Shown piece after piece: positions 44,382 through 46,012 of a stretch of 64,000 bases of DNA. The position numbers were made by a program, and so were the translations under genes. Position 1 is the first letter of the stretch. Every line of letters begins with the position of its first letter. The notes below the pieces were generated by a model, which saw nothing but the letters and a program-made list of their open reading frames with translations, had not been told where the DNA came from and ran no database searches. Source of the stretch: Spartobacteria bacterium (GTDB lineage Bacteria; Verrucomicrobiota; Verrucomicrobiia; Chthoniobacterales; UBA10450); NCBI GenBank assembly GCA_003169695.1, contig PNAS01000042.1, forward strand, positions 3,419 through 67,418, written 5' to 3'.

Positions 44382-45224
44382 TCAGGATGACCGGTATCGA
44401 GCTCGCAACTCCTCGGGATCGGCGCCGGATTCGCGCAGCTCTCTTAAACTGAGCGAATCGTGCCGTTTAGCGAGTCGCCGGCCTAACGAGTCCGTGATCA
44501 GTTTGGTGTGATAGAATCGCGGCGCACGCAAACCCAGCGCGCGGTAAATCAGCGATTGCCGAAACGTAGAGAGAAGCAAATCCGCCCCGCGAACTACTTC
44601 ACTGATTTGCATCGCTGCGTCATCCGCAACCACCGCCAGTTGATAAGCAGGCACATCGTCTTTTCTCCAGATGATGAAATCGCCGAAATCCACCCCGGCG
44701 ATCGCGAGTTGCGTTCCAAGGCGCTGATCGACGAACTGCAACGTTTCCGCATCCGGCACGCGAAAGCGCCAGTTATGCCCCGAGGGCGAATCAAGGTCGC
44801 TAATAGTTCCGCTCTCTGGCCAGCACGTTCCCGGATAAACAGGTTCTTCGTTCTCATGGTGCGGCGCGCTCGCGGATTGAAGCACGTCGCGCCGCGAACA
44901 GGTGCAGGGATAAATCAACGCCGCGTCGCGCAATTTCTTCCAGGCGAGGAGATAGATTTCGCGCCGTTCGCTTTGGACGTAAGCCGCAAACGCTCCGCTG
45001 ATGTCCGGTCCTTCATCCCACCGCAATCCAAACCAGTGAAGGTCTTCGACGATGGCGTCGCGAAATTCTGCCGCACACCGATCGCGGTCGAGATCTTCAA
45101 TCCGCAGAACCAATCGTCCACCGTTCTGATCCGCACGTTCCTGCGCGCGCCAGAATGTCATCGCATGCCCGATATGAAGATAACCCGTCGGCGATGGGGC
45201 GATACGGCCGCGGTATCCTGTCAT
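44382..45224 (-). CDS. gluQ: Glutamyl-Q tRNA(Asp) synthetase
   Basis: Attaches glutamate to queuosine in tRNA(Asp), a tRNA-free class I synthetase paralog. 280 aa. ATG 45224 gives MTGYRGRIAPSPTGYLHIGHAM with the HIGH motif; the GTG at 45251 adds nine residues (MRDSSASLG) encoded by a repeat. Zinc ligands: YPCTCSRRDV and EEPVYPGTC. The KMSKS box is degenerate (RRLAKRHDSLS), as usual for GluQ. It lacks the anticodon-binding domain, again as expected. Its start codon lies in a palindromic repeat that also gives the divergent HAD gene its start. Confidence 0.93.
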   Translation of the reverse strand: MTGYRGRIAPSPTGYLHIGHAMTFWRAQERADQNGGRLVLRIEDLDRDRCAAEFRDAIVEDLHWFGLRWDEGPDISGAFAAYVQSERREIYLLAWKKLRDAALIYPCTCSRRDVLQSASAPHHENEEPVYPGTCWPESGTISDLDSPSGHNWRFRVPDAETLQFVDQRLGTQLAIAGVDFGDFIIWRKDDVPAYQLAVVADDAAMQISEVVRGADLLLSTFRQSLIYRALGLRAPRFYHTKLITDSLGRRLAKRHDSLSLRELRESGADPEELRARYRSS

Positions 45225-45325
45225 TCCGAGCGAAGCCGAGGAATCTCTCACTGCCCGCGAATTTGCATGAATCGAGCGATTCCTCGACTACGTTTCGCGT
45301 TCGCGAAACTCCGCTCGGAATGACA
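45219..45325. repeat. Palindromic element D between gluQ and the HAD gene
   Basis: A 107-bp element with TGTCATTCCGAGCG at one end and CGCTCGGAATGACA at the other; inner arms share GAGGAATC / GATTCCTC, and a second inner hairpin CGTTTCGCG...CGCGAAAC is present. It fills the whole gap between the two divergent genes, and both ATG codons come from the GGAATGACA ends. Confidence 0.93.
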
Positions 45326-46012
45326 AAGGTACAAAAGCGTCTCTTGCTTTGGGATATTGACGGCACTCTCATCAGCACGGGTGCGGCTGGACAGCGGGCC
45401 ATCGTGCTGGCGACGGCCCAACGATTTGGAGGCAGCGGAGATTTGGAGGGAGTGGAGATCGCCGGGCGGACAGATTCCGGCATCGCGCATCAGATTCTCG
45501 TGAAACATGGAGAGCCGATCACAGAGGAAAGTATGAGGACATTCCTCGACGTGTATCTGGAATTGCTCGCTCACGAGTTGCCACGCAGCAAAGGGCAGGT
45601 GCTGCCCGGAGTACTGAAGCTGCTGCAGCGAGCTGAATCCCGACCGGACACCATCCTGGGGCTTTTGACCGGCAATCTGCGGCGGGGAGCTAAACTAAAA
45701 CTCCAGCATTACCAATTGTGGCATTTCTTCGCCTTCGGTGCATTCGCGGATGACCATCACGATCGCAACGAGCTCGGCGCTTTTGCCCTGACGCGTGCGC
45801 AGGAGACCACTGGGGCAAAATTCCTGCCGGCGCAGGTCGACGTCATTGGCGACACAGGTCACGACATAACCTGCGGAAAAGCGTTTGGCGCGCGCACGAT
45901 CGCGATCGCGACGGGGTCGTGGCCGCGGGAAAGATTGGCCGAATACGCCCCCGATTTTCTCTTCAACGATCTCTCGAACGTGGACGACGTGAGCGCGACT
46001 TTAGGCTGGTGA
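45320..46012 (+). CDS. HAD-superfamily hydrolase
   Basis: Phosphatase of the haloacid dehalogenase family, phosphoglycolate-phosphatase-like; 230 aa from ATG 45320 (MTKVQKRLLLWDIDGTLIST). Motif I is DIDGTL with the nucleophile Asp, motif II LTGNL, motif III region GAKLKLQHY and motif IV VIGDTGHDITCGKAFG (GDTxxD). The track ORF from 45155 reads through a repeat and the opposing gene. The start codon sits at the end of a palindromic repeat, 96 bp from the gluQ start. The substrate is not deducible. Confidence 0.88.
   Translation: MTKVQKRLLLWDIDGTLISTGAAGQRAIVLATAQRFGGSGDLEGVEIAGRTDSGIAHQILVKHGEPITEESMRTFLDVYLELLAHELPRSKGQVLPGVLKLLQRAESRPDTILGLLTGNLRRGAKLKLQHYQLWHFFAFGAFADDHHDRNELGAFALTRAQETTGAKFLPAQVDVIGDTGHDITCGKAFGARTIAIATGSWPRERLAEYAPDFLFNDLSNVDDVSATLGW

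Follow-up and report, generated by a model that had tools for sequence, protein, structure and literature searches.

A dispersed REP-like palindrome probably supplies the start codons of the divergent gluQ and HAD phosphatase genes

REP, BIME and REPIN sequences are short, dispersed, intergenic palindromic units that often occur as inverted pairs of about 60-110 bp (Bertels and Rainey 2011, PMC3116915; Di Nocera 2013, PMC3733652). They are mostly located between tandem or convergent genes, and many of the REPs found at the 5' ends of ORFs may be extragenic, with translation beginning downstream (PMC3733652). Rickettsia palindromic elements (RPE) and the in-frame fusions of ERIC/NEMIS are also small palindromic repeats that add translated residues, but they insert within or extend ORFs (PMC2229807, PMC10969869). 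Correia elements, again small repeats upstream of genes, are able to influence expression and supply promoters (PMC10969869). Here we describe an element in a 64,000-nucleotide stretch of DNA from a Spartobacteria bacterium (the window) that resembles the REP group in its build, but lies between divergent genes and has ends that coincide with their predicted start codons. Unlike RPE and ERIC/NEMIS, it appears to provide the initiation codon itself at both ends, with an addition of just Met-Thr and at most about three codons, and unlike in Correia elements no promoter was detected in it. A literature search for the repeat sequence returned chance matches only, as judged by titles, and no description of repeat-supplied start codons was found. 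Likewise, an Rfam search of the element gave no match at E values up to 1.

According to the original prediction, a single 107-bp palindromic element fills the gap between gluQ and a HAD phosphatase gene and provides the ATG of both. Direct reading of the sequence confirmed that an inverted-repeat element at 45219-45325 makes up the whole gap, in agreement with its arms and fold. The features of the locus are as follows.

44382..45224, minus strand: gluQ, glutamyl-Q tRNA(Asp) synthetase (Pfam tRNA-synt_1c; NCBIfam GluQRS)
45219..45325, no strand: whole element, a pair of REP-like hairpin units in inverted orientation, separated by a short spacer (from sequence, fold and family copies)
45219..45246, plus strand: left REP unit TGTCATTCCGAGCGAAGCCGAGGAATCT, whose outer end on the minus strand is GGAATGACA and holds the predicted gluQ start codon
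45222..45224, minus strand: predicted gluQ start codon ATG (MTGYRGRIAPSPTG), from sequence and comparison of gluQ across relatives
45278..45325, plus strand: right REP unit GATTCCTCGACT...CTCCGCTCGGAATGACA, with the predicted HAD start codon in its outer end
45292..45309, plus strand: extra tip hairpin GTTTCGCG-TT-CGCGAAAC, which makes the loop of the right unit larger than in relatives such as G007
45320..46012, plus strand: HAD-superfamily phosphatase of the Gph/PpaX type (Pfam HAD_2; NCBIfam matches below cut-offs)
45320..45322, plus strand: predicted HAD start codon ATG (MTKVQKRLLLWDIDGTL), from sequence and comparison of HAD upstream regions
45329..45331, plus strand: GTA codon, where G087 and G029 have ATG and G099 has GTG; probable former HAD start, lost here

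The terminal arms of 17 nt (45219-45235 and 45309-45325) differ by one mismatch, and a second, nested pair of arms joins 45231-45249 with 45274-45292. Folded as single-stranded DNA, the 107 nt reach -32.3 kcal/mol (z = -6.8), a value that none of 200 shuffles matched. Both ATGs lie within the terminal GGAATGACA of the element, at 45224 on the minus and 45320 on the plus strand, which leaves 95 bp between the start codons. The gluQ product scored 262 bits against the NCBIfam GluQRS cut-off of 250. The statement that no other good starts exist nearby was too strong in its wording: in-frame alternatives are present for gluQ (GTG 45251, inside the element) and for HAD (ATG 45155 upstream, and a TTG 8 codons into the gene), but from their sequence none of them looks as good as the two ATGs. 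Inspection of the sequence revealed no Shine-Dalgarno motif ahead of either ATG.

The palindrome is real but not unique, and belongs to a dispersed repeat family. Allowing up to 3 mismatches, its outer 26 bases have nine occurrences in the window's genome, this locus among them. Of the 83 genomes of the family, 80 contained the arm pattern with the ATGACA end, which occurs 0-163 times per genome across the set, while a reversed-pattern control gave 0-1 matches per genome. Most arms, when read outward, end in NNATGAC(A), and copies often form inverted pairs with a spacing of about 60 bp, or about 55-75 bp between the opposing arms of G007 and G094. Dispersed copies, hairpin units that are imperfect palindromes, and inverted pairs are all REP or REPIN characteristics, and the anatomy of the element is that of a REP doublet (REPIN or BIME). 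However, the outer tag is TGTC in the window and most relatives, not GTAG or CGTC. Y1 transposases were found in all genomes tested, and RAYT (Y1) was considered as the gene flanked by this repeat. This candidate was rejected as the Y1 genes lack flanking copies: only one arm was found in 95 kb around 33 Y1_Tnp hits, compared with 0.10 per kb at the lepA and dnaJ loci. Because of the TGTC tag and the Y1 genes that are not flanked by the repeat, we refer to the element as REP-like. Terminal inverted repeats, as expected of a MITE, are present, and among the relatives compared no clean empty site was seen at which a target-site duplication could be checked. One of the Y1_Tnp-domain proteins (L019:862-1863, minus strand; 333 aa) has a long C-terminal extension that is DnaA-like by eye.

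To compare the HAD junction across relatives, we used 75 upstream regions of HAD orthologues, which are present in 73 of the 83 family genomes. An arm (no more than 3 mismatches to TCGACTNCGCTCGNNATGACA, and no further than 36 nt from the HAD core RLLL(F/W)D) was found in 18 of these regions and was in frame in 17, from six genera, while 0 of 15,000 shuffles of the same regions reached 3 mismatches. In 13 of the 17 in-frame cases, from genera g1, g3, g5, g7 and g12, the arm ends at the identical codon, with a junction that reads ATG ACA, three codons, then Lys-Arg; the repeat ATG is mutated in two of these (ATT in G081, CTG in G089). In g13 and in additional g5 species the arm at this codon is more decayed, and in relatives with another repeat or none the gene mostly starts elsewhere. 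A REP unit was present within 200 nt upstream of HAD in 30 of 75 regions, as against 2 of 29 for lepA and 9 of 30 for dnaJ, a control that was picked because the window's genome has a REP unit there; none of the lepA or dnaJ units is located at the start codon. The repeat is found at HAD even where gluQ does not lie next to that gene. Relatives with the same ATGs but no repeat had been named as evidence that would speak against the claim, and this was encountered in part, as several g5 species have ATGACA beside a different repeat family (CGTCATTCG type). We infer that the latter reflects a later replacement upstream of the captured codon.

On the gluQ side, G000, G007 and G013 all start with ATG-ACA-NNN-TAC, and neither the gluQ nor the HAD junction differs by a single base among these three; in G009 the sequence is ATG-ACA-ATG-CCT-TAC, which contains a second ATG. 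The relatives that bear the repeat would start both genes at its ATGAC(A), which supports the prediction that one palindrome supplies both ATGs. At this site G002 and G003, which are sisters to the window's genome, carry another repeat, a point against the takeover described below. From the upstream stop to the conserved core, their gluQ genes (L023, L024) lack an in-frame ATG, GTG or TTG and offer only CTG, ATC and ATT as near-start codons. The pN/pS ratio of gluQ between the two genomes is 0.26, and together these observations suggest a non-standard start or a gene that is still constrained.

The states seen among HAD genes can be placed in an order. In outgroups from other Verrucomicrobia, HAD mostly starts 1-3 codons before the core with M-K-K-LILW-type N-termini, and relatives without this repeat also start 1-3 codons before the core (ATG AAA AAG in G002 and G003, ATG CAG AAA in g14). 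Within g5, both the repeat and the inner ATG are present in G087 (ATG ACA AAA ATG CAA AAG CGG) and in G029, where the in-frame ATG follows three codons after that of the repeat; G099 has GTG at the inner position, and in G081 the inner ATG persists but that of the repeat has become ATT. In the window genome the inner position is GTA, and the native ATG is gone. Such an order of dual-start and lost-start states is expected if the repeat took over the start. The best reading, to which we assign a probability of about 0.68, is therefore an old insertion whose ends would have taken over the start codons of both genes. Specifically, an ancestor of several genera of the family would long ago have acquired a REP doublet between its divergent gluQ and HAD genes. 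On the outward strand the outer ends of the units read GGAATGACA or GACATGACA, and each end would have offered an in-frame ATG a few codons upstream of the native start. Selection may then have tolerated the loss of the native starts, with the result that both genes would begin inside the repeat with an added Met-Thr. The comparisons establish the element, its family, the identical in-frame junction in several genera, the older start three codons further in and the covarying hairpin; from them we infer the direction of change, the real use of these ATGs and any effect on translation.

The most serious rival to this ancestral takeover is a hot spot, in which repeats have inserted repeatedly upstream of HAD and gluQ and only those survived that restored an in-frame ATG; the shared codon would then be due to target choice and selection instead of one ancestral insertion. 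Repeats of at least four families are present at this site, in 53 of the 75 HAD regions, a count that is biased as the three other motifs were written from these same regions. Moreover, parsimony on the HAD tree needs about 22 state changes, which means that the site turns over fast and makes repeated insertion a serious rival, and Opitutaceae outgroups have another repeat-like run, TTCGTGTCCATTCGTGTTCATTCGTGG, before the same HAD gene. Two junctions that match base for base in three genomes and a HAD junction shared by five genera speak against recurrent insertion, and the stem type unique to this locus in G094 (see below) points to long residence. On balance we consider a hot spot unlikely.

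The element might also be an ordinary intergenic REP, with true starts elsewhere (GTG 45251, the TTG inside HAD, or a non-ATG codon) and the ATG coincidence an effect of annotation. This would fit with the extragenic nature proposed for many REPs at ORF 5' ends (PMC3733652) and with the missing Shine-Dalgarno motifs. Yet no better start exists, the repeat ATG is in frame in 17 of the 18 close matches, and the inner native ATG has become GTA in the window genome, which renders this explanation improbable. Least credible by far is a dedicated bidirectional operator or promoter that serves both genes and is not a repeat: the symmetric sequence and its position between divergent genes are as such a site would have them, but the number of dispersed copies contradicts it, as do its occurrence at HAD without a neighbouring gluQ and the lack of a promoter-like site.

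The same scan bears on the proposal that the element must contain the promoters of both genes. No sigma-70-like promoter sites, the only type covered, were detected in 45000-45550, and a terminator scan yielded nothing. As transcripts could begin inside the opposite gene and no promoter was found, the proposal does not follow. The alternative proposal, that the original control region was replaced, is plausible in so far as both start regions consist of repeat sequence and sister lineages have other repeats there.

We also considered the hairpin that encloses the HAD start, which, under the takeover scenario, would have been retained in at least several lineages. In 16 distinct HAD-side arms, which were chosen for likeness to the REP pattern in a way that favours structure, 92% of hairpin cells pair, compared with at most 40% in slid controls, and double changes occur in 11 cells where shuffles average 3.6. 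The stem includes the A and U of the start codon. REP hairpins covary throughout the family anyway, and the repeat population rather than this locus could be the source of most of this covariation, as ATTCC, ATGTC and ATCCC stems are each a common type. The HAD-side stem of G094 is different: it is ATCGC/GCGAT, and among the 78 further arms matched in the G094 genome not one has the GCGAT end. In this one case, compensation took place at the locus itself.

In mRNA the hairpin would probably limit access to the start codon. With leaders of at least 100 nt both AUGs are predicted to be fully paired, and a transcript starting in the opposite gene would hold both AUGs in a stem of about -53 kcal/mol; with shorter leaders, the HAD AUG is predicted to be partly open and the gluQ AUG mostly paired. 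Transcription across the whole element may therefore sequester both starts fully, and transcription from inside it may do so partially for HAD. A single-arm mRNA hairpin acting as a strong thermodynamic switch found no support, as it folds no better than shuffles (z about +0.7 to +1.1). The fuller scenario, in which a mobile palindrome captured both starts, a compensated hairpin gates the translation of both genes and later repeat families inherit this role by replacement, is possible but tentative, and we hold it more likely to be wrong than right.

Several observations were made at other loci. In G007 an OsmC-like start (L157) follows the outward ATGAC of the repeat in frame after 16 codons, and a SufE-like start (L180) does so after 5 codons, so that the supply of starts may not be limited to the gluQ/HAD pair. 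About 800 bp past the end of the window, a single REP unit (L002:1501-1537; G000:C21) lies about 10 bp upstream of an ATG, and the gene that follows is threonyl-tRNA synthetase-like by eye. Outside the family, TTCGTGTCCATTCGTGTTCATTCGTGG-type runs precede HAD at L197, L199, L203, L211, L218 and L238 (Opitutaceae and relatives). Upstream of lepA (L295-L324), a conserved TTGAC(C) ... GCATAGTG block stops about 10 nt short of the ATG and resembles a promoter whose leader is very short.

REP-like repeats are usually seen as intergenic passengers, and here one appears to have replaced the starts of two conserved genes. In related species this end of the repeat falls on the identical codon, and a selfish repeat appears to have been incorporated into the gene starts. 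A repeat held at one codon across genera, together with natural intermediates in which old and new starts are both in frame, would provide a testable case of a repeat joining the translation start.
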